Shown here: piece after piece, positions 31,901 to 62,157 of the stretch
Numbering within the stretch: the stretch's first letter is position 1
Layout: every line of letters starts with the position of its first letter
From: Pempheris klunzingeri
Taxonomy: Eukaryota > Chordata > Actinopteri > Acropomatiformes > Pempheridae
Length of the DNA: 64,000 nucleotides
Assembly: GCF_042242105.1 (NCBI RefSeq)
Contig: NC_092013.1
Location: 3,839,987 to 3,903,986 of the forward strand
Reading direction: 5' to 3'
Made by a program: the position numbers and the translations under genes
The notes under the pieces: generated by a model
The model's input: the letters and a program-made list of their open reading frames with translations, nothing else
Told to the model about the DNA's origin: nothing
Database searches by the model: none

Positions 31901-34900
31901 CTACGAAGACGACGCCGGAGTCTGAATTTTCACCTTTTCTACCTCTGGAGGAGCGTTTCTTCGTTTGGCCGTGCTGGTGTGTGATTCCTCATCGTCAGAC
32001 CTGACCACAGGGGTGTCTCCCCCGTTGGCGTTGGTGGTCTGGCTGTCGGAGGAGGAGGTTGAAGATGTGGAGGACATGCGGGACTTGTCCAGACCTTCAA
32101 GGACATGTCGAAAGAGTCCATTGCTGATGACTTCCTCGTTGTTGTTGTTTCCTTGGACAGATAAAAACAAAGAATATTGTTTAGGGATTTGAATGTGACG
32201 TGTGTTTTTATAATCTCTGCTCTATTTCCAGGTTTCATACCTGGCAGTGGGGAGGTCAGCACCCCCTCCTCTCCCCCAGAGCTGAAGAAGACATCCAAAG
32301 CCTCCTGGTCAGAGATGTCAATCAGCTCCATCTGGTCCAGCAAGTCCACGTTCACCTCCATGGATGAGATGCTGCCAATTGGAGCTGCAGGAGAGGGGAT
32401 GCAGTGAAATGATGTTCATCTGTGTATGAACACAAACATATTTGCATGAGTGCCACCGGTCCAACTCACGCCTCTTATAGTCTCGGATACAAAGGTGCGC
32501 CGAGGACAGGTAGACGTCCACATCGTGCTGGAAGACCTCCTCAAAGAAGCGCTGTCTCTCTCTCAGCTTGAGCTGCTGTGCTGCGTCCACATCTGGGAGC
32601 CTCTGGCCTCGCTCGGTCTCCGCTGGCAACGACAACAGAGGGGCAGGAAGTTATGTGACGTGTGAGGGAAACCTTCATACCTGATGCCTGGAGATTTGAG
32701 GCCAGAGAGTTTGAAAATATGTGCACACCAAAGAAAAGGGGTTTCATAGACTAGTTACTCCACTCTGGACGTAGGCGTGCTGATGATGTTTAACGTGTCG
32801 CATAGTTTGAGAATCATTTTAAGTCACACAGGGGTCAAATGTTGGTAGCCAGAAGGTGGAGACATTGAGCTGTAAGTGAGAGACATAAGGAGGTGGACTC
32901 CCCCTTTCATGGGGAATTAAACTTTGCAAGGAGACGTAATGAAAAGTCAAACATAACTTATCAAAATGAATAAAAGATACTGTTGTTGTCTTAAGTGCAA
33001 AAAACTGCATCCATTTTCCACTAAACTTTCACTCCTTCGGATTATGATTCATCCCACTGATAAAAACAAACTGTTGCTTTCTTCACAAAGCTAATTAAAC
33101 AGCCTCTGCAAACATCCACACTGTGCTGTCCTGCATGTTTACTGAACCAGCTCCGATCCATTGATTTGCAAACAGTAAGCTGCCAGGTCCTTGACTGAGT
33201 TAATCTCGTTTGAGATACCATCCGATCCCATTTCCCCCCTCATCAGCATCCTTGTAATAAAGCTGAGTGCAAGTCCAATGCATGCGTGCGAGCGGAGCGG
33301 TGAACTGCAGCAGTGTGGCTGTGAGAGCAAAGAGGAGAGGGGGAATGCTGGACTCTATAGATGCTGCAGATGGTGGAGGATTTTTAATGAAAAGCAACGC
33401 ACAGAAGAAGCTGATTTGTTCGTTTATGCGTTGTGGGAAAGGCCTGTTAGCGTAGCTTAGCATAAAGACTGAAAACGGGGGGAAACAGCTAGCCTGGGTC
33501 TGTCTAACATCAGCTCACCAGCTCCTCTAAAGCTGATTTATTGTTTGTTTTTTTTTAGGTTTTGTAAGTGTTGAAGGGAGGATGACAGGAAATCTACCAC
33601 TTGGACTCAGCGGAGGGGCAGAGTCTATAAAAAGGGATGGGAGGCTCACCTTCCTGGTCTGAGACACACCTGAGGGAGCAGCTTTGTTCAGTGGTTGATT
33701 TGATTTGGAGGAAAAAAATATGCTTTGAATCAGGATTTGAATGGTGAAACATTTCTTTTAGTTCTTGGTGTTAAAGATTTGTTAAATAGTGGGTAAAAGG
33801 CATTATTTTCTTGATGCTGAGGTGAGACACATCAGCCAACAATGAAAGTATGCTCAAGCACAACAGAAATGTTTTTAATTAGGTTTTTTATCGACAAAAT
33901 TACATTTAACAAGCTTCTTGCTTGAGGGGGAAGGTTGCTGCATTTTTCACTACATACTCTGAATTTGAACTGACAAATGTTGGAATCTTTTATTATTAAG
34001 TGCTATTTCCTCCACTTAATCCATATGCTGCAGTCACAAGGGCCACGTCTGGGTTTCAAAGAGCTTTTACAGCCTCCAGGCAGGGATTGAGCTAACTGGA
34101 TGGGCCTCTCAAGCCTTGTCTAAACTAGGAACAATGTGAAGATTATCTAGCCTATGTTGAGAGCAGCAGTCACAACAGCTCTACAAATACACCAGTGAGT
34201 GATGGAGGAAAGACATTTAGCTTAGGATGTTTACAATGCCAGGAAAGCAAAGGTTTCCAGGGATTCTCTGTTGTCTTTAACAACATGAAGAGGCTCCCAC
34301 TGACTCAACCTGTCTCATAATGAGCTACAACCATAACTCCATAACTGCAGGAGAAACCTGCAACCACTGCAAATCCCCAGAAATGTAGATGCAGCCTAAA
34401 AGCAGCGGTCGCCGTCCTCAGAGTGCTTCCTCAGCACTGTCCTCGCCACGAGTCGAGCGCGGCCACATGTCTGTGGTGACGGAGGGACGCGCTCCTGTCA
34501 CTGCAGCTCTGCTCTGCCCTGTTTGACAGCCGGCCTCCTGGGTACAGGAGCCTCACTGGGATCAGACGGGCAGACCGCATCGGAGGGAGGAGCGGAAGAG
34601 GACAGCTCAAAGCCCAGGGCCGGACCGGCTGACAGCACCTATGGGCATACAGTATATGTGTGCATAGAGGAAATGCAGAAATATAGACGTGGTTCCCCAA
34701 AGACTGAAAAAACATGAAGTGTACGAGGAAACTGACTGCAAAAAGTGATGAGTTGACAACATCTGCCTTGGCACAGAGCTCAGACTTCGGTTTAAATGAT
34801 GAACAATCAACAAAACATCCCCGTGTTTTGTTTTGTCAAGGCAGTGAACCCTAACACCTACAAACTGAGAGGCCCTGAGATGGTGATGATCGCGCTGTGC

Positions 34901-37900
34901 AGCCTGACAAAGTATACGGCTTTCTCTGTGCCGTCAGACAAGATGAGATCCGTCTCTACACCACCTACAGTTTGGTGGTCAGAATCCGTTCTCATACTGA
35001 AAACGACACCACTGGTTGGGTGAATGAGCTACAATGGCTCCTTCGGGGCAATCGTGCCAAAGTACACCAGCTAAAAGTGCTCGTTTTTACCACTGACAGG
35101 CTCAGATTGTGTCTCACAACGTTACAGAAAGGATCCATGCAGAGATAGAACTGGAAGATCCTTTTGGTTTAACCACAAACAGACCTTCTATCATTCAGAT
35201 CAAAGCCACCAGACTCCATTGATTAAAATAAAGCAATTTAACATTTGAGTTGCTGTCTTGTCTTGATCATTTAGTCTGCTATCGTGTGACTTAGTTCAGA
35301 TCCAACACAATAATTGAATGAGAGATCAAAATTGCTGTTTTTGTCAATGGAGTCTGGTGGGTTTGAAAAGATCCTTTTTGTCTAAAGGATCTTACAGGTT
35401 TATCTCTGTAGGGATCCTTTCTGTAATGTCGTCACCAGTCATTTTGAACTCAAAACATGTAGAAAAAAGGCCCCTAGTTTAAAAACACAGGTGAGATCCT
35501 TTAACTTATGTCACATGACCCACCCCAGGATCTTTTCCTAAACCTAACCAAGTAGTTCTGGTGTCTAAATCTAACCCAACAGCGACCCTGTGACTGTGTC
35601 ACCCCCTTTTGACGTTTAATACTGTCACACAGTGAGCGTCTGCATTGGACCCTCAGAAAAGATGATGTTTGGGTTCATATAAGAATTTTCTCAGTCTCAC
35701 TTTCGGTTTTACATGAGACACAAACCTCCCGACTCAAAGTCCAGTGTTCGTCCCATCAAACCAGCCCTCCATGACCTCCATAAGCAGACTTTTTTGCTGT
35801 TATGCTCTAAAGGGTGCCTTATGCACCGGTATCAGACTCTACAGGTGGTGACAAAGCGCCGGGTTTTGACCCCCTGGGAACGACAACAGTCTCTGACTCT
35901 AGTGATGTCACTTTATCACTTTTTGCACGGTTCCCACTGGAGCTACAAAAGGTTCCCTCAGACCTGTAATCACACTTCGGCGTGTAATATCAGTCTCACT
36001 TCCTCTTTAAGTAATGTCCGTCATTTACCAAACAGGGACAGACAGCAGATGCCACTTTAAGTCCCCTGCAAGAGGTGATGTTAGTGATTACAAAGTAATT
36101 AAGTTTGGCTGTGCAGCCACTAACTAAGGGTGGAGCTGCTCTTTCCTGGTTGTAATCTTAAAAAGAAAAGTGATGCTCTCAGATGTTGCTGGATGATTGA
36201 TTACAAATTGTTTATCTTGCGTCAGTCTTTTTTGTCTTTGTGTAGATGTCGGGGGTGTGTGTGTGTGTGTGTGTGTGTGCCTGCGATGCTCTCTTCTCCT
36301 TGCACTGTTACACAATCAGAAACACTTTTGTCAAAGGGAGCAACGCTGACAAAGCAGGATGTCAGTCACAATCAGGAGCTGCCCGTTTGATGTGTGTGCT
36401 TGGATGAAAAGAGCTCCTTGTTTAACGTGACCAGCTGAGGACATCGTGTCAAACAAAACTGAGTTTGTACCGGCTGAATGGTCATCCTTTCTTTCCTGTC
36501 AAACGGAGAGCAGACAGGACTCAAACCGCATGTTCGAGCTGCAACCGCCTCCAAGAAAACGACGCCTTCCATCACTGCAGCTTTAAACAAACTGCTTATC
36601 CTGGAGTTTTTTCCCCACTCAGTTCACAGTTCAATAATTGATCTCATCATTGATTGTTTCTACTTAAAGGCTGAGGCCTGCGGAGAGCTAAAGGTTAGCC
36701 ACAGATGTATATCCTCGCATTGATTTTGCTTCCCTATCCAGTTCTTTTTTCCACTGAATCACTCCGATCGATGCGGCTTCCCCGGCCGCTGACGACCCCT
36801 CCGACCTCTGATTAGCACAACCGCTCACAGGGGGGAAAATCCTGTGTCACAAGGAAGAAAGCCTGGCCATGAGATTACACGTTGGGTCTGCTGCAGCCCC
36901 GCCACAACCCAAAGACTGTAGCTTCATACCACAAGATGCCTGGAGGGCCTGTGGCTGCTCGAGACACACAGAGAGAGAGAGACGACAGAGACAAACAACC
37001 TGCAGGCTCCAGCTTGACTTTGTGTTCTGTGTGTGTTTGATTCATTCTGTCTTTCTTTTTTCCTTCTTTATCACTGTCTTTTTATCCAAACCTCTGTCTT
37101 TCTTTCTCCAGTTGAGTCTCTGTTTTCTTTCATTTCATTTCAGCATGTTTGGTCTGGACCTGCTCTTTATGGCCGGCGTCTTGAGATAACACTGTTGTGA
37201 ACTGGCGCTCTTTCTTCCATCGTTCTATTTTCATCTTTCTGATTTTCTGTCTGTTTGTCTTTTTCTGTTTCAGCAGTCTGTCTTTTTGTTTTTCTCTCTC
37301 TTTCTGTATTCCTTCCTGTCTTCTTCTGTCTATCTGTCACTTTCTATCCATTCTATTCCCTTTATACTTCTCTCTTTCTCTCTCCCTGTATCATATTTGT
37401 CTCCCCCTCCTTCCTTCCTCTGACTGCTCGGGGACTTGAGAAAAGGAAAAGGTCATAGATCAGGGCTCAGGACCAGCTATGCAGAATGACTGCAACTGAC
37501 AGAAAGACGGGGACGGACACAGCGGGCCGGACGTGCATGCGAGCCACTCTGCCTCCCCACATAAAGACAAACCCAGATCCTCCGCTGGGGGAGGAGGAGG
37601 GGGCGGCAGAGAGAGAAAGGGCCCATTCAGAGGCGAACAAAAGCAGGGAACGGGACTGGCCTGCCCTCCTTAGACATGCTGCTACTTACAGGAAGTCATT
37701 TCAGATGTAGTGGAGGGTGAACACCCTTAAACACACCTTTAATTTGTTTAGTAGGGTCAGATCCGTAACCGATCAGGAGATGCTTGTTAAATTCCTCCTG
37801 TTTTTTCCTGCATATTTTTTCTCTTAAATCAGAAAACAGACTTTTCAGAAGAGTCAGAAGCTGTCAGCAGACCTAAAGCATCATCCCCACATGAGGATAC

Positions 37901-40900
37901 AGATTTGCTCAATGCTCTATTGTGCCCAAAAAAAAAAAAAGAGAGTCATGCATGCCAAAAATGATGTCACGCTCTATATCTATTTTGTATCTGAATGTCA
38001 TCCGCTGCCATGTTTTCAAGGACGGGACCCTAAAACGCCAGTTTAGAAGCACCACCGGCACAAGCAGCCGAGGCAGCACATTGATCTGGAGGCTAAATGA
38101 GGCGATGGGAGGGCTCGGTGTCGCCCACAGGCTGCCATTAGCCCGTCGCTGTGCTGAAAATGTGAGCCCACTGGCAGACTCCCCTGTGACGGGGAAGGTC
38201 AGAGCAAAGCAGATCGCAGACAACTGCCTCTCCAGATGATCCAGTTGTTTTTAAACTTGTTGACTTGAGGAGCAGCTCCGGCACCTCGGTTCACCAGAGT
38301 CCACTCATCTAAGCCAAGGCTTTTTCTGAGAAGTGGTTTCATTATACAAACGGATGAGGTCGACCATGTTTAGATGACTGTGGTGGTGACACATACGTCC
38401 ACGCGTCGCCTCAGACATCCAGGAAAAAACACCAAGCACTTCAGTGTCAGTGGTTTAAATAGAAGAATGTACTTACAGACTGAGTACTTTCCCCTGTTCC
38501 TCATACACAATTCAATGTTGAAATACATGAATATATACTAAAATAAACACAAATAAATAAATGAATGAATAGATAAAAGAATAAATATATAAAAAGATGC
38601 TAAAATAGATACATTAACTATTTAATATGGCAGTAAATAAGCAAATGAATAATAAATATGAATAAAAAATGCTAAATAAATAAATAAATCAAAGTTTAGA
38701 ATTAATCAGAACATAAATTAATTAACATTTATTTGTTTGTTTCTTATTTTGCTTATGCAGTTCTATATTTCGATCGCTGCAACCTATCTCCTCATTATTT
38801 ATTCATTTAAGGTTTTACTTTGTTCTTTACTCATTTAAATAATTAATTCTTTATCCCTCTCTGTCTCTCAGACACACTCTGCTGCTGTATATACTGAATT
38901 GACGAGGCACGATCCCCCATCGCTGACTTCTGAACACCACGACAGACCTGAAACTCTGAGGTAACACTTGTTTGGGCAGATGCCACTGCGAATAGACCGA
39001 CTGCCCTTTCCACCCAGACACTCTCTGTCAGAGGAGAGAGATTTTATTTCACATGGACGAGCTCCCGACTGCAACAAGAAAGAGAGAGAGAGAGAGGGTG
39101 CAGGAGAAGGAGAAGGCAGTGAGTGGCCTTAAACACAGAAAGACAGCGAGGAGAGTGAGGGAGGAAAGGTCAGGCGGGACAGCAACATTTGCAGAAAGGA
39201 TGAAAATGAGGAGGAGGAGGAGGAGGAGGAGGATGTCTTTAAAAAATTCAGAGTATGACAGGAGAGAGGTTAGCCAAAAGTGAGTGAGTCAACACTTTGG
39301 GTGTGGGGTGCACTGATGGAAAGGATGGAGAGAAGGAATTCTGCACAGGCTCATTAATTAAAAAGGATTTCTTGTTATTTTTACTGTGAGTCTCATCCGT
39401 ACCTTCCAGCACAACATTGACCTCAGCAGCAGCAACAGCAGGCTGTTAACAGTCTACAGCCGGTCATTAGTGGATCGTCTCTATACTGGAGCTGTTACAG
39501 TAATTAATGGTGTTTCGACGGTCGTGGAGAAAGGTGGAACGACTGGTTGGCCACAGGTAGCAGATTTATCCTCCTCTAACAGCAGGAGCAGAGCTGCAAC
39601 TATTACTGAATGTGCTAATTTATCACAAACGTTATAAAAAGATGATGCTGAGTGCTTTGACACATCCTGGTCAGCACATCCTGAAAGCTTCCCGTGAAGT
39701 AAACTCCCTTACAGTTTTCTATTTTCCCCGTGACTGCAGTTTCAAAACCATCGCATTCCCTGCTTGTACCTTTTTCTCCTCCTCCTCCTTCTTCGGAAAA
39801 CAGAAAAATGCTTTCAATTAAAGTGGAGCAGACAGCTGGCCAGCTTTGTAAAATGGACAATAACATCTTTGGAGATGATACACTCGCTTTTTCCTTCTCA
39901 CACTTTTATTTTCGGTTTCTTTCGCACTCTTACCAGGCTCCAATTGCAAGGACAGTAAATTATTTATGGCAGCTATTGATGTGTGTCTGTGTGTCTGTCT
40001 GCTCTGTCTGTCAGCGCATGTGTGTGTGTTTTTATTTGCATATTAGATCAGGATGTTTATAGTGGGGACAAAGCGGTGTCCAGCACCACCAGCCCAGTCC
40101 ATCAGGACAACAATGACCTCAGTGTTAACCCTCTCTTTCCTTCCCTCCCGCCTGGTTTACACCCGAATGACAATAGGACTGTTTGTAGGTCAGTGTCCTG
40201 TCCCACTGCCCTCCATCAGCCCACAAGCAGGCTGTCATGAGCTCTAATCGACACAACAGGCCTCACCAGCTGACAAAGTACCGACGTACTCGTGGTTTTT
40301 TTTTCAATGACTAATCTTCTTATCCAAAATGACTATTGACGAATTGTAGAGTAAGATTATTAAACTACAATTTAAGCAATCCAACCAGCCAATACTGCTC
40401 AAATCTCTGCGAGGGCTATTGAATTACTGCATCTGTGAATCAACACGGCCGTCTATTAAAGTAAATGGTGCTAAGTGTCTCTGAAGCGACTGTCGACACA
40501 CTGGCACGGCAGCGTCGAATATCCTGACACATTTTACCCGATAATTAAATCTCCACGCACTCTAAAAGGAATATAAAATTATCCGGTGAATGCTGATCCT
40601 CTGTCTAATGATGCCTTAACAAGTCTTTCAACGTCGAATCCTCGCATGCTGACTTCTCTTGTGAAAACCTCCTCAACAGCCCTGTTGTTTCTGGGAAAGC
40701 AGCACTGCCACATATTTGTTTGAGAGGTTTAAATCTGTTTTCCCTCCCTCCAGTTGGGAGAACTGTAGGAATGTTTGGTTAAACTCACGGAGTGTCTCAG
40801 ACGTGTCTCCTGTGTTTGTGGAGGCTTACGCAGGCCGGCCTGCAGATACTTCAGCTATAAAGGATTAAACATGGTTTTTATCATGATTTATTGCAGCACC

Positions 40901-43900
40901 GACCGGCCAAGAACATTGAATTATAACTTGAGTCACAGTCACAACACGCATGTGATTAATGTGACTTCAAATCCACAGTGACATGTTCAAAGGGATGCTT
41001 CATGCTTTTAATCAGGGAATTAGTAGACATAGCAAATCACATTCATACTTTTATTAACAAGCCCTCCCTGTCAGCTGGCTCCTGAACTCATCACCCAGCA
41101 AATCTAATCAGTTTGCATCGTTTTTTTTAAAGGGAGAATTAATAAAATTAGACTAAATATTTGTTTGATATGTGCTTGTTAGGTAGCCAAAGAAACATCA
41201 CGTGAGAATCAAGATTTGATAGGAGTGACTTTGACTCTGTGCAGCATCAGTGTTCATCTACTTACATTTCTAATGAATCATGTGATGTGTCGGTGGAGTC
41301 AGTCATGATGGAGTTCACTCTAGAAGTTCTCTTTTCAATATCTCATCATCTCAGACCAAAACAACTGTGCGCCTCCCTCGTCCCCTGCAGCCATGTTTGC
41401 TCATTCTTGTTCGTTCTGCACACATTTCCTAACTTTTGTGCCACTGTGTTAGCTCAGTAGCTCAGTGAGTTTGTGGCTGGGCTTGTTTTCGCTGTTCTGT
41501 GGTTCGCTAACTGAGTGATTCACAGACTCACGTCCCAAATGATGACCAAAACAACAGACAAGAGAAGCTGGAATTAAAACACACAGAGAGCGCACAGCTA
41601 AAAATCTACTAACGTTTTCAGAAAAGGTTCCAAAATCTCCATCACTGCTTTCTCAAACTAGGCTGAATCTGTAAAATCAAGAGCGCTAAAATCAAATTCA
41701 ACAAAAGTTAGCAGTCTGACACGGTGAGGAGGAAAATGGCCCTGAAGCTGACGAAGGTGCGGACTGTCGGGGATCTGACTGCTAACTTTGGAAAAGAAAT
41801 TAGTGAGCTTGCACAAACAATAGCCAATCTGGAAAACTACTCCAGATGCAGTGACTCACGGCACGTTACCTTCCCTGAAAATACAGAAGGAAATGACATA
41901 ACAGGATTTACCAGCAGTCTGCATAAGAGCACCCCAGTAGACCAGCTTAGCCTCACAATAGATAGAGTAAACATGTTGGGTCCAGGGTCAGGATCAATAA
42001 GCCACAAACAAATTATCCTGAGGCCACTTTATCCTCAGCAAGATCAGCGAAGGTGATCAGAAAGCGAATGAAGTACAACAACATAAAGGACGCCCTGCAT
42101 CCCCTCTGGGCTGTCTGATCATCACCATCGACGGGCTGCGGCACATCTGCAATAATCCTGGAAAAGGCTAAAATTGGGTCCTTGTGTTATATTAGAGGGG
42201 CTTTTATAAAACGGACAGGTGGTTATTTTAAGTGTTTATGGGTCTGACAATAACTCTTCACCAAGAAAAGCACTGAGCTCTCTCAACATTCAGGGAAACC
42301 AATTATCATGGTGGGGGGGTTATAATATAGTGGCTGACCCCTCTATTGATACACCTCGGTAACCTGCCTCCATCGGACCAGGACATCTGGAGACTATTGA
42401 GCCCAGACCTTTATAGGTAACAGGGCTTTTATAATGTGGATTATCTTCTTTTATCTATTTATTTTATTATTAATGTTTCTTTTATTCATTATCTATTTAT
42501 TCGTCTATTTATTTTCCTTCTTCCTTCTTTCCTTTTATTTATTCATCGATTTATTGAATTGTATCCTTCTTTTCTCCAGTATGTATTTATAGACTTTGTG
42601 TATTTGGGGTTTTGATATAATTTAAACCACACTAGTAGAGAACAGGTGGCCACTTTGTACCAGCTGTACGCTGCATGTTATGATTCGTTCAATAAGAAAA
42701 AAACATCTATCTTCTTGAATCCCCATGAGACATTCTCCAGAATAGATTTGGGTTATTCCAAATGTACGATACTAAAATCCAAACATGATTATTTTGTCCC
42801 TCCGTTATAGTCACATTAGCCCGTCTATATGGAAGTTAAGTCTTACTAAACCCAGATCTGATTGATTATATTGAAAAAGAAACAGAGAGCCACTTTAAAG
42901 TAAGTAGTCTGGGAAGCCTATGAAGCTCGTAGAGGCTCCTCATGTGGTTTCCATCAAACCAGCAGGAAAAGAGAACAGAAAAGCACAACAGCCTCATCAG
43001 GGAATTATCTGACCTAGAACTGGTCCCAAAAATGACCAGATTTACACTAAACTGCTGAAAGCAAAAATAGAAGTTAGAGGAAGACGGTTTAAATCGATAG
43101 AGATTAAACTGATGAGTGTTATTTTTAAAATAAGTGATGAATTGCTCCCCCACTTTTCGGTCCAAGACTGGAGAAACTTTTACAATTAACGATCAAGGAG
43201 TTCTACAAAACACTCTAAACCTCTTAAGTTCAGCCAGCGATATCAGATTTTGACTTGATATTATGCAAATTAAAGCTCTCCTCACTGTCGCTGACGAAGA
43301 CAGAGAGGAGCCAGAAGGTGACATTTCTCATTCTGAGATAAAACAGGCAATCAGGGCATTAGCTGCCATCAAGGCTCCAGGGATGATGGATTTAGCATAA
43401 ACTTTTCAGATATATTAAGTGATAAACCAGTATTGTCTGAGACCAATAAAGATCCTGTCCAGTGTGAGGAATATCGGTCCGTCTCGCTCCTTAACTGTGA
43501 AGTTTTTTTTACATTTATTGCACGTTGTTGGATTTTATTTTCCCGTGATTTCACCTGCTGGGCTAATGAGCTATACTGGAAACTCATGAGGTCACCAGAC
43601 ATCATGAATCAATAAAAATAATCCTCAAGACAATCCCCAAAATAAATCAATAAGATAATAAGCCATAAGAAAAACACCTGTTTGGGTGTTTAGGCCCTTA
43701 AAATGTTGTTCTAATGCACTTATTTGCATATATATTTGAACTGCCTCAGTGTTTAAATGATGCTTTACAAATACTCTTGCCTTGGCTAACAGATACAGAT
43801 CAACATTAGCATTCATTTAGAGTCCTGTTTCTGCACAGCAGATCAACATAAGATCAATATTCACTCCCTTTTAGCTCTGTTTTTGGTCTCTACCAACGTC

Positions 43901-46468: not shown

Positions 46469-46519
<51 letters not shown>

Positions 46520-48377: not shown

Positions 48378-49074
48378 TACTCACAAAAAGTTAGGGATAT
48401 TCGACTTTCAGGTGAAATTCATGGAAAATGTAAAAAGTGAATGCTACAGTGATATTATATCATGAAAGTAGGGCATTTAAGTGGAAGCATGCACTGGTGA
48501 TTTCTTCATTTTAAACAATTTATTGAAAGAAAATCTAACAACAGTGGTAGGTAAACCACAACAAAACATTTTCAGTGTCTCAATAAATTGGGATGTGGCC
48601 AAAGGACGTCCACTCCTCTCCTTTCTGTGACTCTTCCAGTCTCTGTATCACTGTTCCAACCTCCTGATGACACTCTGTGACCCTCTAAGCTCAGTGAACA
48701 CCTCCGTCTGAGGACTTCCTGTTTGAAGCCTCCAGTGTTGAGGTGCTGCTGATCAACTGTTAGGTGTCGTCTTGGTCTCATGATGTCAGAATGTGAACAG
48801 CAGGATGAGGAGGACTGTTTAAATACCAATTCTAACTGAAGCAGGAAATGTATTGGTGGATTCATGGATCAAACCTGTTGTGAATGTTGCTGTTAAGCTT
48901 CTTGTTAGAGAACAGCAGCTGGTGCAGAAAGTACTGAGACACTGAACAGTTGGACATGTGCATTCAAAGGTTTAGAGAAGGTCACATTAAGTTCACCTGG
49001 AAAGGTTAGAATGCATTTTAGGTTCATCCTGAAATTTCACCTGAAAGCCGAACATCCCTAACTTCTTGTGAGTA
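48378..49074. mobile_element. Tc1/mariner-type MITE with TA flanks
   Basis: The element spans 48380-49072 (693 bp) between TA dinucleotides (48378-48379 and 49073-49074). The inverted termini begin CTCACAAAAAGTTAGGGAT at left and, read from the right, CTCACAAGAAGTTAGGGAT. Similarity runs on for about 40 bp (CTTTCAGGTGAAATT in both). No transposase frame is visible. It lies between dbndd2 and the ataxin-type gene. Confidence 0.75.
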
Positions 49075-49079
49075 GTGTG

Positions 49080-50600: not shown

Positions 50601-50629
50601 AATTATACACCCAACAAGAGAGAGCCACG

Positions 50630-50656
50630 GAGGGAGGGAGGGAGGGAGGGAGGGAG
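50630..50656. repeat. (GGGA)n microsatellite
   Basis: A tandem AGGG/GGGA tetranucleotide run in a purine-rich stretch (about 50600-50960) upstream of the ataxin-type gene. Confidence 0.9.
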
Positions 50657-50999
50657 AGAGGGAGAGAGTGGAATATGGAGAGAGGAAGAGGAGTGTTATT
50701 ACAAATGGAAGAGAGGCTGAGAGTGCTACTCGGCAGCAAACACAGGGTGAACAAGTTCAGTTGTGAGAGATTGAAAGAGAGAGAGAGAGAGAGAGAAAGT
50801 AAGAGAGGATGAGGGAGAGACATCAAATCCGTCTGCGAAAGGTTAACAGGACTGACTGACTAAGTAGAGTGGGAGTGTAAAATGTAAAAGCGAGTAGGAG
50901 GGAAGAGAGAAAGGAAGAGGAGAAGAGAAAAGGGGGAGAGCGTGTCTGATAGACAGTCTGTTGAGCGCGTCTGGATGCTTCTGATCCACTCTGCTCTGT

Positions 51000-51151
51000 T
51001 TGTGCCTCTTCACCTGCAGCCTCTGGGAGGACAGCACGAGCCAGACAGGTGTGTGTGAGTGTGTGTGAGTGTGTGTGTGAGAACATGGAGCGACATGCTT
51101 CGTGAAGATGGACGCACAGAGAGACGGATGGACGGACGGATGGAGGAGCAC
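51000..51151 (+). other. Candidate non-coding 5' exon of the ataxin-1-type gene
   Basis: A good donor, GAGCAC|GTAAGTAAA, follows position 51151. The coding exon has a good acceptor (TTCTTTTCAG) ending at 53290, so the leader part of that exon would be 53291-53418. Joining the two gives no long frame, as expected for the spliced untranslated leaders of ATXN1 genes. Short upstream ATG frames occur in both pieces, for example at 53382-53402. The left edge (51000) is arbitrary and the transcription start is unknown. Confidence 0.4.
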
Positions 51152-53418
51152 GTAAGTAAACCGCCAACATGAATCTTCAGTGTAAAACCAGCTTGATTTA
51201 TGTGGCATCTTCCTGCGTTTGACTCCACCAGGAGATCCAGCTGTGATACGTGCATCTGTCTAACTCTGGGTGCGTGTTTGAGGAACTATTTGTGGTCTGT
51301 GGGTTTCAGCACCAGAGTTTAAATTTGGTTGTGTTGCACTACAGCTCCATAGATAGAAACATCAAGCGGACTACATGCAATATTGTTAGTCCTGATATGC
51401 AAATTATGACTATCATGATGACAGACACTGCTGTGTGTACGTTTCATTTACGTAGATTAGAGAGCTGCAGTGAAGTGATCGCCTCATAAGGTTGTTCAGC
51501 CTGTAAGACGTGACAGCGTCGGCCTGTTTGGGTCAAGATCCGATCGTACCTGAGTCACTGTGAGTGAGTGGCCCACACGTCCAAGCCGATTTGAATGAAT
51601 TTCCATTTAGACTGCAGGCATTTAGCTGACAAATACTTATCTATTTTATGGTCTAATGCTGAGTGCTTGCACAGGAATGTCAGTGTGAGGGTGTTGTCTG
51701 ATCCCACACACACACACACACTCACACATTATTAGAGAAACAGCTCATATCAGAGACATGCCTGTCAGGCGAGTGAAAGAGGTCCATTGAGCCTTGGTGC
51801 TCGGTTATGATGGTGACATAATGCAGGGCATTTAGATGAGCTTTGCATTGATGGGCTGTAAAGGTTCTGTGCTGCTCTCTACCTCCCTGCATCACTTTAT
51901 GTAAAGAATGTGTCTGCAGAGTCTTTGAATAGGTAAGAAACTGTGTGTGTGTGTGTGTGTGGTGCTTATATTTAGCCTCTTCCAGTGAGCTGACTCACTT
52001 CTGTGCGTGCATACCAGAAGGATGATGGGGTTTTAAACACACTTTGCTGTGTTTCGAGTGGAAAATTACACCATGAAAACCTGACTGAAAGATAACATTA
52101 AAGCAGCAGTCTGTAACTTTTGTTTGTGCATGCTCTCCACTCAGTCAAGCTCCAAATCTGCAGCAGCGACCTGTGCAAACACAACGGCTGAGAGAAATCC
52201 AGCAGCGATGAAGAAACAAGTTACTTCAGCTCTGTGGAACATAGTTTGTGCTTCGGTGTCACTCACGGGACGCACAGGAGGCGGAGGTGCCGTGAAAACG
52301 CTGTAATATGTTGATTGTCTGGCAAGCAGCATCCTGGCTGTTCACACCAGAGGCACGTTTGTCAGCGCCTGTCAACAAGCGAGTCTGCTCTCCTCTGGTC
52401 CTTTATAGTCATACCCAGAGCTGATCTTTATCTGTAACCTCAATAATGTGCATTCACAACGTAAAGCAGCGCCTCACCACCACCTTTCTGTCTCTGTGTG
52501 TGTGTCGTCTCCATCGCCTTAGGTTCAAACAATTAAAAAAATAATCATAAAAATCACAAACAGCTGTGTTACTAGACTATTTCTAATTAATATAGCTGAT
52601 GGGCTTTTGAAATTTCATCATGTGTGGGGGGGAAGAATCTGGGAAACTCCAGGAGAACAGTGGGTCGTGTCCACAGCCCAGAGCTTCTGCGAGCAGCTCT
52701 TGCAGCTGTGGTCCTGCAGCGTTACTGCTGTGTGATGCCGTGGAGGCCGTTGCATCTCCAGGTAGCCTGTTCAGCCTCCAGTGTGTGCACAACGGCCTCC
52801 TCTGCTCTCCCCTCCTCTCTGGTGAAGAGGGAGGGGAGGGAACGGGGAATTAAGTTGTACTGTTTCCACTCACTTCTCAGACCCGTCATCCTTTTACTTT
52901 GCATTATTCTCACTCGTTCCTCCACCGACCACACTGTGCAGTACTTTGTTACCATAGTAACTTTTTTTTTTTTTTTTTTTTCAATGGAGTTGGTAGACGT
53001 CTATCAAACTACAGCCCATCAATCTAGCAAGTGGTGGTTTGAAAGCCTTTATTTGAAAGTGATGGTGAAGTTATTGTTGATGTGCCAAGGGGATATTTAC
53101 AGGCAATGATCACACCAGGTGGCTCATTCAGAGGGGAGGAGAAAAGTTCTGTCACTCATCGGGAACATTGTGACGGCAGAAAAAAACAGAGTCTAAACAC
53201 AGAAGCAAATGATTTTCTCCTGCTGGATGTCTTGATGTTTTGTTTGCGAGGATATTAAGTGCACAAATATTTGTTTCTCCTTCTTTTCAGATCGTGAACA
53301 CCTCGGACCCGACCAGCTACAAAGAGACACTGGAGACTGTGGCACGTGATCACAACACCTCCTCGGCTTCTGCAGGAGGGCATGCAGTGCCAGCGTGAGT
53401 GACAGGCAGCGTGAGCTA

Positions 53419-56014
53419 ATGAGCTTCACACCGAACCCAGGTCTAGTCCCAGACAGGGGCAGCCTCCCGCTCAAAAAGAGGGACCAATGGCCGAGCTCAT
53501 CGCCGCCACCACCGCCACCGCCGCAGCAGCAGCAGTGTGATGCTGCAACATTTAAGGCGCCCTACCCATACAAGAGCCACAGTGAGTTTAAGACCATACC
53601 CAAACGGGTTCCTGCACTGTACCAGCCCTGGATGCAGACTCACACCTCCACCAGGTCCAAACCTCACCTCCTCTCTGCATTCAGGGAGCATCAGGGCTGG
53701 GCGGAGTGGAGAGACTTCAACCCCCTGCACGCCGCATGGGACTATTCTCTCCACTATCAGCACCGTGGACACCTGTCCGGCACGCCGTCACTCCACCCGT
53801 GCCCTCCACACCACCCCTCCAGATTCAGCCCCGTCTCCACTGAGGGTTTCCGGGGTGTGGGTGGAGGGTACGCCTGGGAGCAGCTCAGGACATTAAGGGA
53901 CAAGAGCTCATACACAGAGAGGCAGAGCAACGGACGGAGTAAAGGGCCGTATGTGAGGAGAAGAGACAGAAAAGCTGAGTACTTACCCAGGGTTGAGAAA
54001 ACAAGTCCTCCATCGCTGAGCACATGCCTACCTCACTCTCCACACGAGGACTTCACACAGCAATATGACCTGTTGTACAAATCAACAAAGGCTGTCAAAC
54101 ATCCCATTTCTAGACATTCCTTCGTAAGAGTTTCCCCTGACAAGAACTCAAGCAGCACACACACCTCCACGAAGGAGGACGCACCGAGATCCTCTGCTCT
54201 CGCCTCTTCTGTGCAGTCCTCTCCCCCCTCCTCCTCCTCCTCCTCCTCCTCCTCCTCCAACAGCTTTCCCTGGCTGCTCCCTCACTTCGTGGCAGGCTCT
54301 CTCATCGAGCTCAGAGACGGGCGGCTGAGGAGGGTGGAACACCTGCAGACAGAGGACTTCCTGCTGGGATCACTGGCCTGTCCAGACCTGCGTCTGAGCT
54401 GCTGCACGGTGCAGAGCATCTCCCCTTCGGCCTCCTCGTCCTCCATCTCACGTCTCATCATCCTGCTGCACGACCAGCAGTCACAGGTGAGGGGAACATC
54501 ACTCTGTGGTATTCAACACTCACAACTAGCTGGCAGTATTCTGATTACGTAGCACATCCACCAAAGGATTCATTCAGGTCATATGGGGTTAAGATACATA
54601 GCACAAGTGCTTAAATCCTCCAAATTCTAATGACAAAATGCCTTTCAGGACATGTTAAAGGCTGGTGATGTTACAACATACAATGAGAATCCCCCAAAAA
54701 ACAACTATTGTCTGTGTAGCAGTGCTTGTTGTTCTGTGGCATGGAGCTCCACTGTATTGAAAATAAATGGTGCTGTAGAGATACAAGCACACAAAGTTTG
54801 TGTTAATCCGCAGCTGAAAATAGTCCCCAACAAATGTGCCACTTACTTCTGTTTGAGTAACGGTTGCTAGAAGCTGCAGTGCCCAGGTGTTTTAGGGAAA
54901 TATTTAGCCTTTTTAAAGACTGAAAATGGAAATGAAAGTGCTCGGGACTGACTGCTACACACAGGGTGGGCGAGGAGTAGAGTAGGAACAGACACTCATG
55001 GTTGATTTTGGTTTTGGTCTCTTTATGATAGTCCAACCTTTATATTCTACACCTGCTACTTGTAAAACTATAACATTTCTGACATTTGAGCCTCCTGTTT
55101 TAGCATTTAATGATAGTGGCAGGCAAGTTAATGTGTTGCTTTCACTTGGATCGTTTGATTTTTCTCCAAACAGAAACTACTATCATCAGGCAGGTAGGTT
55201 GCTCCGAAATTAAAGGTCTTGTGATGTGTGATCTCTGATCAGTCACATTATGAGCAAATCACAACTTCAAGGTTCCTGATACGAGACAGAAAGTTTGACA
55301 GGATCTATAATTACATACCAATTAATTACTGTGGTGGGATATTATGGTGGCATGGCAAAGTTTGGCATGTGTTTAAGAAACTCTTAGTTAGGGGTGTCGC
55401 TTTTAACCGTGCAGACAGCTGATCAGCACAAACTTGCATTTATGAAATCTCTACGTTTATTTAAAAAAAAAAAAAAACTTTGTGGTGTCAAACAAGTCAG
55501 CAGCAGTCATTAAGCTCATCAAACATTATTACACTGCTGTTTGACATGAATCAGTAGACTCTCTGAACTGGAACAACACCGCTCCCTGGTGAACAATAAT
55601 GTCAGCTGCATTTCTGTGTCTAACGTTGCAGTGTGTTTGTAACACCCCCCTCAGGAGCTGGTGGATGTCTACGTGGAGTACCCGTTCTTTGTGCGTGGGC
55701 GGGGCTGGTCCTCCTGCAGCCCTCAGAGGACTGCCCATCTCTGTGGCCTGCAGTGTCGCCAGCTCAGCGTGGGGGACGTCTGCCTGGCCCTCACCCCCGT
55801 CTCAGCCCCCCAGCCAGCACCGCCCGACGCCCAGGAGCCGAAATCCTCACCCAGGAGGTCTGAGGGAGGGTGCGAGTCCCCGAAGGCACCACAACCACAG
55901 GTTCCCCCGGGGCCAGAGAAGCCAGCAGGGGGGCAGGGGAGGGAGGCAGAGGTGGCCCGGAGGAGACACTATTCAGCCCCTGAGCTGAGAGCTCCAGGGA
56001 CAAACTGCATGTAG
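53419..56014 (+). CDS. Ataxin-1 family protein with AXH domain
   Basis: Member of the ATXN1/ATXN1L family, nuclear co-repressor partners of Capicua. Two coding exons, 53419-54486 and 55655-56014, give 475 aa. The start is MSFTPNP, followed by PLKKRDQW, which resembles the conserved N-terminal PPKKR(D/E) of ATXN1 and ATXN1L. A Pro7-Gln4 run follows, then an unfamiliar middle and a Ser-rich tract. The AXH domain spans about 283-404 (LLPHFVAGSLIELRDGRLRR; VDVYVEYPFFVRGRGWSSC; LSVGDVCLAL), with the intron inside it. The C-terminus has RRRHYSAPEL with Ser463, equivalent to the ATXN1 Ser776 14-3-3 site. It is much shorter than ATXN1 and lacks its long polyQ. Whether it is atxn1l or a third paralogue cannot be settled from sequence alone. 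It is convergent with bmp7. Confidence 0.9.
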
Positions 56015-57001
56015 TGCAGCTCACCTCCTGTTTTATGGACAGGAAGGGTTAGGGTTAGGCTCTGCTGTGTTCAGCCTATATTTGCTGTCTTTCTACCTCC
56101 TGAATCATATTTCTGTGCTTGACTATTCTAAATGTATCTAAGGAGTGAAAGCTGAAGAGGAACGATAAGATTAAGTCTCAGTGTCAGTCGGGGATCGAAC
56201 ACCGACTGTGTGAGTTGAGTTGAAACATTACAGATGTGGATCCAGGTGAGAGAGCTCGCCTGTTTCCTACGTTATTGTGGGAAAGTGGAGAACCAAAGTG
56301 TGCGTTTGTGTTGCCACAGGCGGCTGCTTCATTGACAGTGAATTTGTAAACGAGGGTGTCTGGGTTTAAAGTGAGTGTTCGTATTATTTCTAGCATTACG
56401 TCGTTATTTCTATTTCTAGTTCTGACTGAATCAGCCCACATTCCTTGAAAAGCACAGAAAAATACTCTCTCAGGTCCTTCACTGCTGATCATATCATTCA
56501 ACATTAGTCTCTCTTCCACCTAATATTACTTCTTTATGATCATAAACAATAGATTTCATTCCAAATTACCGCACATCTTTAATGCCAGTCAACAATCAAC
56601 ACCACTTTTGATTGTAGTAGGATTCAGTTTTACGCTTCTACCTCTATTTTCTATTTATGGTGACAGATGCATATAATCTGTGTTTTTAACGGTGTGCACA
56701 GTTGTAATATGCTGGAAGCTCTCAGCTTCTCAGTCGATGTCAGTTTGAGAGCCTTTGTTTGCCTGCTTGTTACAGCATATAGCCGCTTTGCTTTTGTACT
56801 GATGCTCCGTTTAAACGCCTGTCTCATTGTTAAAGAGTGGAGGTGCCAGTGCTGTCCAAAATACTGTAAAAGCCCAATCTGTGAGCCACGTGTCCGCACC
56901 GCAGTGTCATTTCCTCCTGACTTTAAATTTGGACAAACAATTGAACTGTACTGCACACACAGATTAGGTTTTTAACTTGTGAAACAGTTTTCTCACTGCT
57001 A

Positions 57002-57007
57002 AATAAA
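57002..57007 (+). terminator. Candidate poly(A) signal of the ataxin-1-type gene (AATAAA)
   Basis: The hexamer AATAAA lies about 990 bp past the stop at 56014, with no closer plus-strand AATAAA seen. It would leave a short gap to the bmp7 3' end on the opposite strand. Confidence 0.4.
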
Positions 57008-57182
57008 TATGTCACGTGTAAGATTTTCTGCATATTTTTTTAGACAGCATTCCAAAACCCAATAATCTCACTCACAAAATATTAATTTCCTGGCTGAAGG
57101 TGCTTTGAATGCCACTGCAAGGAGGATTAATGAGGCTGAATGAGGTAAAAACACACACCTGCTTCTTATTTTATAGCTTCCA

Positions 57183-57188
57183 TTTATT
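57183..57188 (-). terminator. Candidate bmp7 poly(A) signal (AATAAA on minus strand)
   Basis: The minus-strand AATAAA lies about 820 bp past the bmp7 stop codon. Frames seen between here and the stop (for example near 57293-57589) are best read as 3'UTR shadows. Confidence 0.4.
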
Positions 57189-58004
57189 CGCCTACTTGAA
57201 TATGACAAAATAAAATTATAGTTTCCCTTTGCCCACCTGCAGCTCTGGTCTGACACCAGAAGGCGGCGGCGTGCGCCCCGGGTGTCCGTCTCATGAAGAT
57301 GAATCGCTGTGTGCCTTTCACGGGCCTGGTGATATATGTCTGCACCAGGGAGCTGAGCCCATCAGACGGGCCCTTCAGTCCCGCACTCTGTTCTTTAACA
57401 GTCTTCACTGAGCTCCTCTACATCAGCAGCGCACGCACAGATGTCTTACACCTGACCCGCACCAAACGGCCTCCTGAACAACCAGTTCAATGCCTGAGAA
57501 GTTTGGTGGAGAATAAGTCCCTCCAGCTGTTCCAAAAAAACAAGAAGGTTCAACAGGAAGATGGAGATTTGACCCTTTATGAGCTATAAATCAGTTACCA
57601 AATGCGTGTTTCCACCCAGGCGATATTTTATATTCTGATGCCTGACGGTCACACGAGGATCACTCATAGTGGGGAAAATAGTCTTTAACGTTCGGTTCTC
57701 TCTGAAAAGTTTCTCAGATGTAACTCCACACTGCTCAGAGTCCTTTTAGTGCCTTTTTTCTGGTCAGACTCAAAGGAGAAACAAAAGAAACCCCTTTGTT
57801 CAACCTTTCTCTGTGAATAATAGTTGTAATTGGTTTGTGGTAGTGGTTAATACTGTGTGGGAGACTCCAGATTAAAGCTCGTTCTGTGGCAGGAGCTCCC
57901 CGGTGACCAGCCAGTCAATCACGTCTTGTCTCCGGTTCCTTCACTTACGCCTTTCCTAAGCATCCCTCCGGGTTTGCGGAGCTCACAGAGGAGGGGACAA
58001 GCGG

Positions 58005-61000
58005 TCAGTGACAGCCACAGGCTCTGACCACCATATTGCGGTACTTCTTGAGGATGACGTTGGAGCTGTCGTCAAAGTAGAGCACCGAGATGCCATGGAG
58101 CTGGGTGGGCGCACAGCAGGGCTTGGGCACCGTCTCTGGGTTGATAAAGTGCACCTGTGGTTCGAGGAAGCATAAATCAATCTTCACTCAAAGTGGAGGT
58201 TGTAGTGAAAGTGCCTCCCATCAAGGGCTTTTCGGGGCTTACCAGAGTTTGCACAATAGCGTGATTGGTGGCATTCATGTAGGAGTTGAGAGGGAAGGCG
58301 CATTCTCCCTCGCAGTAGTACGCTGCATAGCCCTCTGGTGCTATGATCCAGTCCTGTATCGAGTAAAATCACAAGCAAATGTCTGGTAATTGTCACTTTT
58401 GCACATAAAATGATGTGAGATTTTATTAAAATGAGAAAAAATTTAAAGTTTGAACAATACCTGCCATCCCAAATCTCTGAAACTGACATACAGCTCGTGT
58501 TTTTTACATCCCTCTTTGGAGATGCCGAGGTTTTCTAAAATTAAAAACAAGCAGGTATTAGTACACAAAAGTATAGAAAGTACTAAAGGCCAGTTTGTCT
58601 GGGTCATTAAACTATGACCACACTCTATGGTGGTGCTACCTGTTGCGGCCTCCACTGCCTTTACAGCATCTTGGACCGTCCTCTGGGGTTTGGAGCGGTT
58701 AGACTGGCGCCCCTTCTGACCGTGGGCGGAGCGGATGCTGCGGAAGCGCACCTCATTGGCTCTGAAGAAGGCGACCATGAAGGGCTGCTTGTCCTGGGGT
58801 CCGCTGCCCATCACCAGCCCCGCCACACGGGGGTTCCTCCTCTGGCCTGCAGAGGGAGACAGCGGGAACAGAACTAATGAGACAACAACACACATCTGAG
58901 TCTCTACTAAACAATAATGTGTTCATCCTAATATGACCACAACCACCACAATCCTAGCTTGAACTCTGTAAGAACCCTTTACACACATTAACTAAGCATG
59001 TGATGATCCTTTTAACCGTAGGATTTACAGAGAGTCAATAAATCATGACTCCAGACAAAGACTGTATTCTTGCTGTTATGGGTCCTTGTTTGGTAACATA
59101 ATGGTGGTGACTGACCGTGGATGTCCTCCACGACCACGTGCAGGCCGAGGTTCTGCTCGGGACTGACCACCCAGAGGTTAGTGGTCGCGGTCAGGTCAAA
59201 GAGCAGCCAGCCCTCCTCTGCAGCCCACACGTCTCGCTGGTCCAGCAGAAAGAGCTCCACTTCACTGAGGAGAGGACAGGATGTAATCTAATTCAGAGCA
59301 TGTCAAGACCGAACACATTCAGAGTCAAAACACAGTTTTCGGGGGAGTATCCTTGGCTGCAGACCGAAATATTCCACATTTTCCTTGGATGCACCATCAA
59401 AGACATCCCACATCATCGCTGTGCTGATGAAAATGCTGATGATTTGTTACTCATGTCTCATTTTTAAGTTTCAGCAAATTGATTGTCATTCCTGAAATGA
59501 ATGGAAAAAGCACCAACTGTCTGGAATGTATGAAAACAATCTAAAAAGCATGTGGGAAGTGGCCGGCTGTCATGCAAATTACATAAAAATGAGTATTTAA
59601 TTGGCAAAAAAAAACTGTATGTGTGGTCCTGCGATGGTTTGTGTTGATGTTTTATGTTGTTATGGCAAAATACTCCAGCAATCTGGGTTTGAAATGAAAA
59701 GTGCAGGAATCATAACACTTTTATACATATTTTCCCCAATTTTAGGAAAGATGATACGTTAAAGGCAACTCAAAGGAGTTAAAGCCCTAAAAGTGAAATA
59801 TAGCAAGACAAGCTGAGCTCAGTACAACAGAGAGTTTGATTTGCTGAGGACCAGACTGACGGCAAAGAATGTGTAAAATAATTAAGTTCATGTTAACTTG
59901 TTCAGATTTGTTGCGTCACCAAAAAACTCTTCAATATAAAACAGTTCTATCATTCGCACATTGTTCGTCAGACGTGGATATGAACAAAACCAAATTAAAG
60001 ATGAAAAACAAATCAGATATGAGCCAACAGAGCAGAAAATGTGTGAAATGGGAATCAGTGCAAAACTACTGATGCATGTACAAATTATAAGTGTTTTAGA
60101 TCATTTCAATGCAGGATTAAAGAAGATCCTTTTGGGTCATTTCAGCCTCAGAGCAATTAGTAGTGGCCTAATAATTGAGGGTAGTTCCCCTCAATCGTGT
60201 ATCCGCCCACGAACGAACGGCCATCATCAAGGGAGCGCCTTCTTAACGTCCCAGCAGAAAACTCCTGCACTGATACGTGCCGTCTGAATGGCAGATTTCA
60301 CAGACAATAGCTCTGATTGCAGATTGAGTTTCAGACCCTCAGGCAGGCGTCTGTCTATAGTCCTGCGCCTGCTCGTCTGAGTGGAGTGGCCTTTGTGTGT
60401 CTGTGAATGACAATAGTGTCGCCCTTAACGCCATCGTCAGCCCCACTGTCACCGACGAAGGACTTTAAATCTGCTGCCGGCACTTGATTCCTCCTGCTCG
60501 CTCACGTCTGCCTGGCTGCAAGCCGGTTGATGGGATGCCGAGATTTTATAATGTGGGTGGTAAAACTTTGATTTGTGAGAAAGAGGAGCGACGTGTGGAG
60601 TCTAATTACTCTTCAAACGGATGATCCGTCATATCGTTTTCCAATCTCAGATGTGGTTCGAAAAGAAGAAAACAGTGTGAGAGTAACACAGAAGCTGGCA
60701 GACTGACAGACACAGCAGAGCCACAGGCAGTCAGACAAGACGGGAACGTGGAGGGATAACCACCTGCGTGAGAGAACGAGAGAGAACTGACGTCTTGGGG
60801 GCCGAGAGTGTTATTTGTGGTTATAAACGCAGGTCTCCTGGGGACTGTGCTGCTCTGACTGCGTGAGGGTAAACTCGCTCTGGTGGGGGGGGGACAACTG
60901 TGCTTCTGTAATTGACACTAATGTCTGTGTAAACAGCTTTGGCGCTGACACGAACATGGGCAGGAATAACCTGTGGGGAGATGCACACAGACAGCCAAAG

Positions 61001-62157
61001 CAGCATTTTTGCTTCAGTAGTACTAAAAAAATTACATTAAAATGTTCACCAGTATCATTTTAGTCTTCAGGTCTCTGTTGTGGTAATAAACCCTTCTGGA
61101 GATTATGTTTTGGAGACGTAATGTGTTGTGCTGGTCGTCCTCTTTGGTGCAGACTGAAATATTTCAACAGTTATGGATGATTGCCATGATTGCCATTCAT
61201 GCCCCCGTCGGGATGAGCTGTAATCACTTTAGTGATCAATGACTGTTGCTGGAGTTTTTACTGCTACAGTCAAATATGTCAACAGAATCAGCACAGATGC
61301 TCAGAATGACTTCAGGGATCTCCTTTAGTGCCAATTTGTGTTGATCAGGGAAATAACTCGACAAATATTGGACTGGACTGATGTGAACTTTGGTGCAGAC
61401 ATTATTTCCTGTTTAGATTATTTGTAGTAACATTTTCTTTGTTGCAATCATCAGGTCAAATGTCTAAATTGCTGTTTATCTCCAGTGCTAATGAGTAATC
61501 ATGGTGAACAAGGTAAATATTATATGTTGTAATCATCAGCCTGATTATTCTTATTATTTTGCATGCGAGAACAATGAAATTGAATTATCAAAAATAAAAT
61601 AAAACTTCATTCTCGAAATGTAAAATAGAAAAAGAAAATTCCTCTAATTTCCCGGTATTCTTCCACAGCCTGTTAGCATTGTGCTAATGTTAGCATGGTG
61701 ACCTTTGAGCATTCGGCTAGCGTAGCAGCAGATGTCATTTTCATTCCTGTGAGCACCACAAATTAAATCCCAGTCATCTCCATCGTACTGTGGCAGAAAT
61801 CAGGCAGGCATACGGAGTAAGTGTGGAAATACTATATTTATTTGTTTGTAATTTGAATGAACTGACCCCTGAATGTGAAAGACCACTGAGGACATCAGGC
61901 TGATGCATCACAGGATAAAGCAAAAATAAGTGGAACCTGTAAACTAAACTCTTACTCGTACCTGTCTGAAGGCTCCTGCAGGACCTGGTAGACGCCGACT
62001 CTGAAGGTCTCGTTCTCGTAGCGCTCCTGGGTGAAATCCTTATAAATCCTGAACTCTGCAGCGGTGACGGACTCTCCCTCTGGGATACGTGAGAGATCAA
62101 ATCGAAATTCTCTTCTGTGCTGCTGGAGCAGAAGATCCTGATCCTGATCCGGATCAA
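58005..62157 (-). CDS. bmp7: Bone morphogenetic protein 7, exons 2-7 (5' partial)
   Basis: Secreted TGF-beta family ligand acting through BMP receptors and SMAD1/5. Exons (high to low) are 61962-62157, 59116-59264, 58640-58846, 58461-58534, 58243-58353 and 58005-58154; all phases match the vertebrate BMP7 gene. Exons 2 and 3 encode prodomain ([37 protein letters not shown]). Exon 4 carries a furin-type FRSIR site and a basic linker. Exons 5-7 carry the cystine-knot domain: [36 protein letters not shown], and the end VVRACGCH. The final eight residues match BMP7 rather than BMP5 (SCGCH) or BMP8. Exon 1, with the signal peptide, is not in the window. Exon 2 begins with a short acidic DPDQDQD stretch not seen in human BMP7. 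It could be either teleost bmp7 copy. Confidence 0.95.
59265..61119. other. bmp7 intron 2, mostly unique sequence
   Basis: No exon is visible. The stretch about 60100-60680 is non-repetitive, with homeobox-like TAATTA/AATTAG and CAAT sites, and is a candidate regulatory element only. Confidence 0.35.
61120..61760 (+). repeat. Fish-wide interspersed repeat in bmp7 intron 2
   Basis: GCAGACTGAAATATTTCAAC, TGATTGCCATGATTGCCATT, GACTTCAGGGATCTCCTTTA, TGCAGACATTATTTCCTG and AATGTTAGCATGGTGACC follow the order of the same common family as the repeat at 3508-4330. It is old and diverged. Confidence 0.5.

Follow-up and report, generated by a model that had tools for sequence, protein, structure and literature searches.

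Ataxin-1, whose gene is behind the human brain disease spinocerebellar ataxia type 1 (SCA1), belongs to a family that has been described as consisting of ATXN1 and ATXN1L. Both proteins act with the Capicua (CIC) repressor and require the AXH domain to do so (passages in PMC10676324). Three genes of the family (atxn1a, atxn1b and atxn1l) are described in zebrafish, with no duplicate of atxn1l found, in the sections available of PMC8583371, and a medaka atxn1l knock-out has a phenotype (parts of PMC11405765). We analysed a 64,000-nucleotide stretch of the 646 Mb genome of Pempheris klunzingeri (called the window; G000:C2:3839987-3903986, where C1, C2 and so on denote chromosomes of this fish) which carries an ataxin gene between a dbndd2 homologue and bmp7. 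This gene is a real extra ataxin-1-type gene, one of a sister pair found in twin blocks on C2 and C11, and the pair is likely to represent a third lineage of the ataxin-1 family that arose by duplication of an ancient block. No description of such a lineage was found in the literature, which was searched in part, and the gene may well stand already in genome databases under an ataxin-1-like label, without a name of its own.

A family search of the genome for AXH domains matched 13 exons, which belong to seven genes, five of the ataxin-1 type (C1, C2, C8, C11 and C16) and two of the HBP1 type (C5 and C22). The dysbindin search matched nine exons of five genes, located on C2, C16, C1, C11 and C8 (these counts being lower bounds for large families). 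All five dysbindin genes were found on the five chromosomes with ataxin-1-type genes and none on the HBP1 chromosomes, and the ataxin-dysbindin distances were about 22 kb on C2, 36 kb on C11, 100 kb on C16, 1.09 Mb on C1 and 11.6 Mb on C8. A paralogous neighbour was therefore present on every ataxin chromosome, and was close on three of the five. When five ataxins and five dysbindins were placed uniformly at random in 200,000 draws, at least one ataxin fell within 120 kb of a dysbindin in 1854 draws, at least two did so in 6, and at least three in none. The observed number is three, or two if C2 and C11, which are not independent, are counted as one ancestral event, and the limit of 120 kb was picked after the distances had been seen.

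All window open reading frames (ORFs) of at least 20 amino acids (aa) were compared with 90 kb of C11, which covered its intervening content up to 17.09 Mb. Matches were obtained to bmp7 (17012306-17019549, +), the ataxin (17029043-17029687, -), dbndd2 (17065755-17067375, +) and the cadherin gene (17075677-17082872, +), and the genome search with Pfam PF05236 placed taf4 at 17127721-17129136 (+), with further taf4-type matches on C1, C5 and C6. The gene order from left to right in the window is taf4 (-), cadherin (-), dbndd2 (-), ataxin (+) and bmp7 (-), and the five genes on C11 have the order and orientation of the window, reversed. C2 and C11 are most simply explained as two copies of one block, produced by the teleost duplication. 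The window ORFs were also compared with stretches around the AXH genes of C16, C8, C1, C5 and C22, which at 10-30 kb were too short for wider synteny. Of the 34 matches at 1e-3, the 12 below 1e-5 were inspected, and each belonged either to an ataxin exon, in one case read in an antisense frame, or to a dispersed repeat. The initial annotation had placed a dysbindin-domain gene, an AXH-domain ataxin and bmp7 side by side, and Pfam and solved-structure scores confirmed all three where it had put them; the Pfam Dysbindin domain was found in the window frames 31939-32415 (-, E = 3.2e-26) and 32318-32650 (-, E = 9.9e-16).

Human DTNBP1 is located at 6p22.3, DBNDD2 at 20q13.12 and DBNDD1 at 16q24.3 (passages in PMC10418609, which like parts of PMC9510119 names three human dysbindin paralogues), ATXN1 at 6p22.3 (PMC8583371, in part) and ATXN1L at 16q22.2 (PMC10676324, in part), and the human linkage recurs in zebrafish between dtnbp1a and atxn1b (passages in PMC8583371). 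Two of the three human dysbindins therefore share a chromosome with an ataxin; the place left for a third is taken by the C2/C11 ataxin, and this favours a third lineage. The way in which the fish dysbindins pair suggests that they are the counterparts of the three human genes, in which case the dysbindin paralogues are older than the split between fish and tetrapods. The name DBNDD2 for the C2 and C11 dysbindins is our assumption; we also take human 20q13 to carry BMP7, TAF4 and CDH26, and we know of no ataxin there. Early vertebrate genome duplications would have copied an ataxin-dysbindin block to give three pairs: ATXN1 and DTNBP1, ATXN1L and DBNDD1, and a third ataxin together with DBNDD2. 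This last block would have been doubled again in teleosts to generate the C2 (window) and C11 copies, and mammals would have lost the third ataxin, with DBNDD2 kept in human. The early-vertebrate dating is drawn from synteny and not from the tree. The initial annotation had proposed that a block was duplicated in ancient times and an additional ataxin kept, and this part stands, in that the C2 and C11 ataxins are sisters, the dysbindin tree groups C2 with C11 (bootstrap 89, from a short alignment without exon 1 of the C1 gene) and the human positions fit; the doubling of the extra copy had not been foreseen.

The window ataxin encodes a single intact protein of 475 aa in two coding exons, with GT-AG splice sites and no internal stop. 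The Pfam AXH match was split across the window frames 53350-54552 (+, E = 3e-8) and 55643-56014 (+, E = 8.9e-18), and the complete domain scored over the Pfam cut-off of 33, with AXH positions 1-75 at 54286-54513 (36.3 bits), a match that extends past exon 1 into the intron, and positions 68-115 at 55652-55795 (66.6 bits). By eye, a candidate 5' untranslated exon may end near 51151, with a putative splice acceptor before 53291. The C11 protein is longer (694 aa), and retains motifs that are altered in the window copy. The N-terminal motif ECLPPKKRE is present in the C16 and C11 proteins and has decayed to SLPLKKRD in the window copy, and the nuclear localisation motif RKRRWSAPE of ATXN1 reads RKRRWSAPD in C11 and RRRHYSAPE, with its tryptophan changed, in the window copy. 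In mouse, V591A together with S602D in the AXH domain abolishes binding to CIC (passages in PMC9957872). Both residues (in human numbering, by our own count on the alignment) are kept in C11, while the window copy keeps the valine and has glycine in place of S602. In the C11 ataxin (C11:17029454-17031136) the AXH domain is also preceded by a long charged stretch of alternating Arg-Asp/Arg-Glu, which is not seen in the window copy.

Comparison of the C2 and C11 AXH domains (117 codons) gave a dN of 0.35, a dS of 0.98 and a dN/dS of about 0.36, a ratio that averages both branches and involves a dS near saturation. The AXH domain of the pair is under purifying selection on average. The corresponding values for C16 and C8 were a dN of 0.12 and a dS of 1.33, and the higher dN of the C2/C11 pair indicates that it is the faster in protein evolution. 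AXH branch length was 0.55 for C2 and 0.26 for C11. With one CIC-contact residue lost, the nuclear motif changed and the N-terminal motif decayed, the window copy is, judged from these residues, the more diverged partner of the C11 copy. The same changes, together with the shorter protein and the longer branch, could mean that the gene in the window is decaying and that the C11 copy performs its function, an explanation compatible with the other readings of this locus; given the open frame, the intact splice sites and the averaged dN/dS, we consider it doubtful. The function of the pair is most likely that of a nuclear AXH scaffold of a repressor complex, with a predicted Capicua-type binding through the AXH domain that would be better preserved in the C11 copy.

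A pattern search for the C-terminal tail gave no match in the window and one in the 90-kb C11 block, although a tail split by an intron would escape such a search. The C11 match, a frame reading SFIPEEVKL at about 17074469 on the minus strand, resembles the ATXN1/ATXN1L tail and is on the same strand as the C11 ataxin. It lies 43 kb upstream of that gene, beyond dbndd2, so it is no 3' exon of the ataxin and is probably a chance occurrence. Within the reach of this search, the idea that the lost tail is encoded on another exon was rejected.

AXH identity was 61% between C2 and C11 and 81% between C16 and C8, and identity to human ATXN1 was 86% for C16, 77% for C8, 60% for C1, 50% for C11 and 45% for C2. 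The C2 and C11 ataxins are firmly established as sisters, distinct from the others: support for the pair was 80/81 in the AXH tree that included HBP1, 99.9/100 without HBP1, and 100/100 in a full-length tree of the five genes, in which much of the alignment is disordered sequence. A distinct lineage is also supported by 13 AXH columns where human ATXN1, the two fish ATXN1 genes and C1 have the same residue and C2 and C11 share another. Seven unrooted AXH topologies, chosen by the analyst, were compared by the approximately unbiased (AU) test, and five were rejected (p-AU 0.0005 or less), all of which split C2 from C11. For these five topologies, a reading in which just one of the two copies, be it C2 or C11, is a duplicate of atxn1 or atxn1l is thereby rejected. 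In the tree with HBP1, C2 and C11 fell outside ATXN1 and C1, where the support for grouping ATXN1 with C1 was weak (36/54), and in the best unrooted tree C1 was the neighbour of the pair; in the best trees the pair did not group with human ATXN1. Rooting on HBP1 gave p-AU values of 0.67 for the pair outside ATXN1 and C1 (the third-lineage placement, which was the best of the four but not significantly so), 0.62 beside all ATXN1, 0.20 beside C1, and 0.15 beside the fish ATXN1 genes with human outside.

Several observations weigh against an ancient third lineage. Linkage within about 110 kb was seen on three of the five chromosomes only (C2, C11 and C16), with the genes 1.09 Mb apart on C1 and 11.6 Mb apart on C8, and the dysbindin tree groups C16 with C1 (support 39) and not with C8. 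The gene for bmp6 is off the ataxin chromosomes, on C21, where the AXH and dysbindin searches gave no match. The C-terminal tail common to the C16, C8 and C1 proteins is absent from both C2 and C11. The AXH domain does not fix the attachment point of the pair, as none of the four rooted placements was rejected, and the unrooted topology with C2 and C11 beside the fish ATXN1 pair, human outside, had a p-AU of 0.25 (0.95 log units). There are 11 AXH columns in which C11 sides with all three ATXN1 against C1, and only one in which it sides with C1 against ATXN1 (four for C2), a pattern that possibly leans to a kinship of the pair with ATXN1, or else to a fast C1. Finally, the comparison is confined to this teleost genome and human ATXN1. 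A search for non-teleost relatives in viral and prokaryote contigs returned 79 and 63 pattern matches, none of which was confirmed.

Some of these observations would also be expected if the pair descended from a single-gene duplicate of ATXN1, formed in ray-finned fish or on the teleost stem, inserted beside dbndd2 and bmp7 before the teleost duplication, and fast-evolving thereafter. The placements beside fish ATXN1 (p-AU 0.25 unrooted and 0.15 rooted), the 11 columns, an AXH intron placed as in ATXN1 and the RKRRWSAP motif retained in C11 all speak for this origin. Such a transfer, whether from ATXN1 or from ATXN1L, is disfavoured because it needs a chance landing in a dysbindin neighbourhood, and for ATXN1 this means landing beside a paralogue of the very kind of gene that adjoins ATXN1 itself. 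There was also no net sharing of sites with fish ATXN1 against human: C11 and C2 each share two columns with both fish ATXN1 genes against human, one of them in common, while C11 shares two with human against fish; four further columns match one fish copy only. The column counts thus give no pointer to a teleost origin from ATXN1, although the pair may be tied more closely to ATXN1 than to C1, and we regard the ATXN1 duplicate as improbable. An origin of the pair from ATXN1L, represented by the C1 gene, through a later ray-finned duplication is very unlikely. C1 is the neighbour of the pair in the best unrooted tree and the rooted placement beside it has a p-AU of 0.20, but few columns join C2 or C11 to C1 against ATXN1, the uninterrupted AXH domain of C1 is not found in C2 and C11, which have the ATXN1 intron, and the neighbours differ (dbndd2 and bmp7 in one case, another dysbindin 1.09 Mb off in the other). 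That the window gene alone is the teleost duplicate partner of atxn1l, atxn1a or atxn1b is scarcely credible, for although family duplicates are expected from zebrafish atxn1a and atxn1b being teleost duplicates (passages in PMC8583371), the same five-gene block is present on C2 and C11 and the trees joining either copy alone to C1 or to one fish ATXN1 were rejected.

Derivation of the pair from ATXN1 or ATXN1L is therefore unlikely, and is disfavoured by synteny only and not by the AXH domain. A position of the protein inside one of these clades, named in the initial annotation as the outcome contrary to its proposal, is made unlikely by gene order, while the AXH tree leaves it room at the p-AU values given above. 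Returning to the third lineage, we hold with moderate confidence a fuller account in which early jawed vertebrates would have had three ataxin-1 genes, each accompanied by a separate dysbindin. The one next to DBNDD2 and BMP7 would survive here as a teleost pair in which the nuclear and CIC-contact motifs are kept in one copy and the tail is absent.

A BMP7 query of the genome identified bmp7 on C2 and C11. Solved-structure scores identify the BMP gene on C21 as bmp6 (189.4 bits for BMP6 and 173.7 for BMP7), so that the proposed mirror of a DTNBP1-ATXN1-BMP6 arrangement fails for the BMP gene and holds in this genome for the dysbindin-ataxin pair only. A mirror involving other BMPs was also rejected. 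The ATXN1 chromosomes gave one multi-exon match of the BMP5-8 type only, on C16 at 7 Mb from atxn1, which scored nearly equally against BMP6 (137.1) and BMP7 (135.4); from signature residues we take it to be bmp8-like, and the BMP gene on C12 to be bmp5-like.

The features of the window are listed in Table 1. In the bmp7 homologue, Pfam matches to the TGF-beta propeptide or mature domain were obtained at 61955-62227, 59015-59287, 58180-58368 and 58008-58187, all on the minus strand, and the best solved structure for the last exon was BMP7 (1bmp; 102.4 bits, compared to 92.5 for BMP6). No exon 1 of bmp7 was seen in the window, and it probably lies beyond base 64000. The cadherin gene is presumably cdh26-like. 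In the interval that separates dbndd2 from the ataxin, Pfam was searched with ten ORFs, all among the longer ones; none scored over the cut-off, and no further gene was identified among them. A reading frame at 22203-22637, between taf4 and the cadherin gene, had no family match in the Pfam scan, and looks like LSM14B. A dispersed repeat at 35075-35479 recurs close to the AXH genes of C16 and C22, and part of it is also present in the C11 block; a short repeat at 10196-10496 is in common with C11:17089549-17089806.

Table 1. Features identified in the window, numbered from its first nucleotide
Feature	Position	Strand	Evidence
taf4 homologue, conserved-domain exons	9960..15065	-	Pfam PF05236 genome search, matches within C2:3849946-3855051
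Cadherin gene, exons with cadherin repeats and cytoplasmic tail	24649..30255	-	Pfam cadherin: one match over cut-off, others weaker
dbndd2 homologue	31904..32650	-	Pfam Dysbindin exon matches 32182-32418 and 32462-32614
Ataxin coding exon 1, from the start codon through the first AXH half	53419..54486	+	Reading frame, GT donor
Intron inside AXH domain, phase 0	54487..55654	+	Position as in C8, C11 and C16 ataxins
Ataxin coding exon 2, second AXH half, RRRHYSAPE motif, stop	55655..56014	+	AXH Pfam match
bmp7 homologue	58008..62086	-	TGF-beta Pfam matches, BMP7 query, solved-structure scores, C11 copy
bmp7 exons seen	58008-58166, 58237-58362, 58461-58550, about 58664-58896, 59108-59263, 61940-62086	-	

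A third lineage would supply the ataxin missing from the third copy of the ataxin-dysbindin block in a family so far described by two members, and would explain why the ataxin and dysbindin families share chromosomes. Fish that keep it would have five ataxin-1-type genes, as found here, and fish models of SCA1 in which a single gene is altered may be buffered by genes that have not been counted. The C2/C11 pair also shows which parts are dispensable: both copies do without the C-terminal tail, and one of them without a CIC-contact residue.

Among the known relatives, the HBP1 genes resemble the pair in belonging to the AXH family by Pfam, but share only 25-29% identity with C2 and C11, have other intron positions and are on C5 and C22, without a dysbindin match. 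The HBP1-type gene is itself present in two copies (C5:9758130-9758636 and C22:2391053-2391396) with 70.9% identity across 86 aa. ATXN1L (also known as BOAT; human 16q22.2, zebrafish atxn1l) is represented here by the C1 gene, labelled ATXN1L-like by its features. It is like the pair in its AXH family membership and in having a dysbindin paralogue on the same chromosome, and unlike it in lacking the AXH intron, in possessing the C-terminal tail and in having QRRWSSP instead of RKRRWSAP. The C1 protein (C1:16015173-16016687) also carries a glutamine/histidine-rich tract directly after the AXH domain; of the species compared in PMC8583371 (in the passages available), human and chimpanzee alone had the polyglutamine of ATXN1. 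The third relative is ATXN1 (human 6p22.3; zebrafish atxn1a and atxn1b), with which the pair has in common the AXH domain, the phase-0 AXH intron and two coding exons (in this genome), the linkage to a dysbindin and, in the C11 copy, the N-terminal CLPPKKRE and the RKRRWSAP motifs. It differs from ATXN1 in the low AXH identity to human (45% and 50%, where the two fish ATXN1 copies reach 86% and 77%), in its position beside dbndd2 and bmp7, and in being without the C-terminal IPQEVK..IEG tail, a region named as conserved for ATXN1 and ATXN1L in passages of PMC8583371. If the proposed origin is true, the third ataxin would provide a natural test of how the AXH domain acts without this tail.

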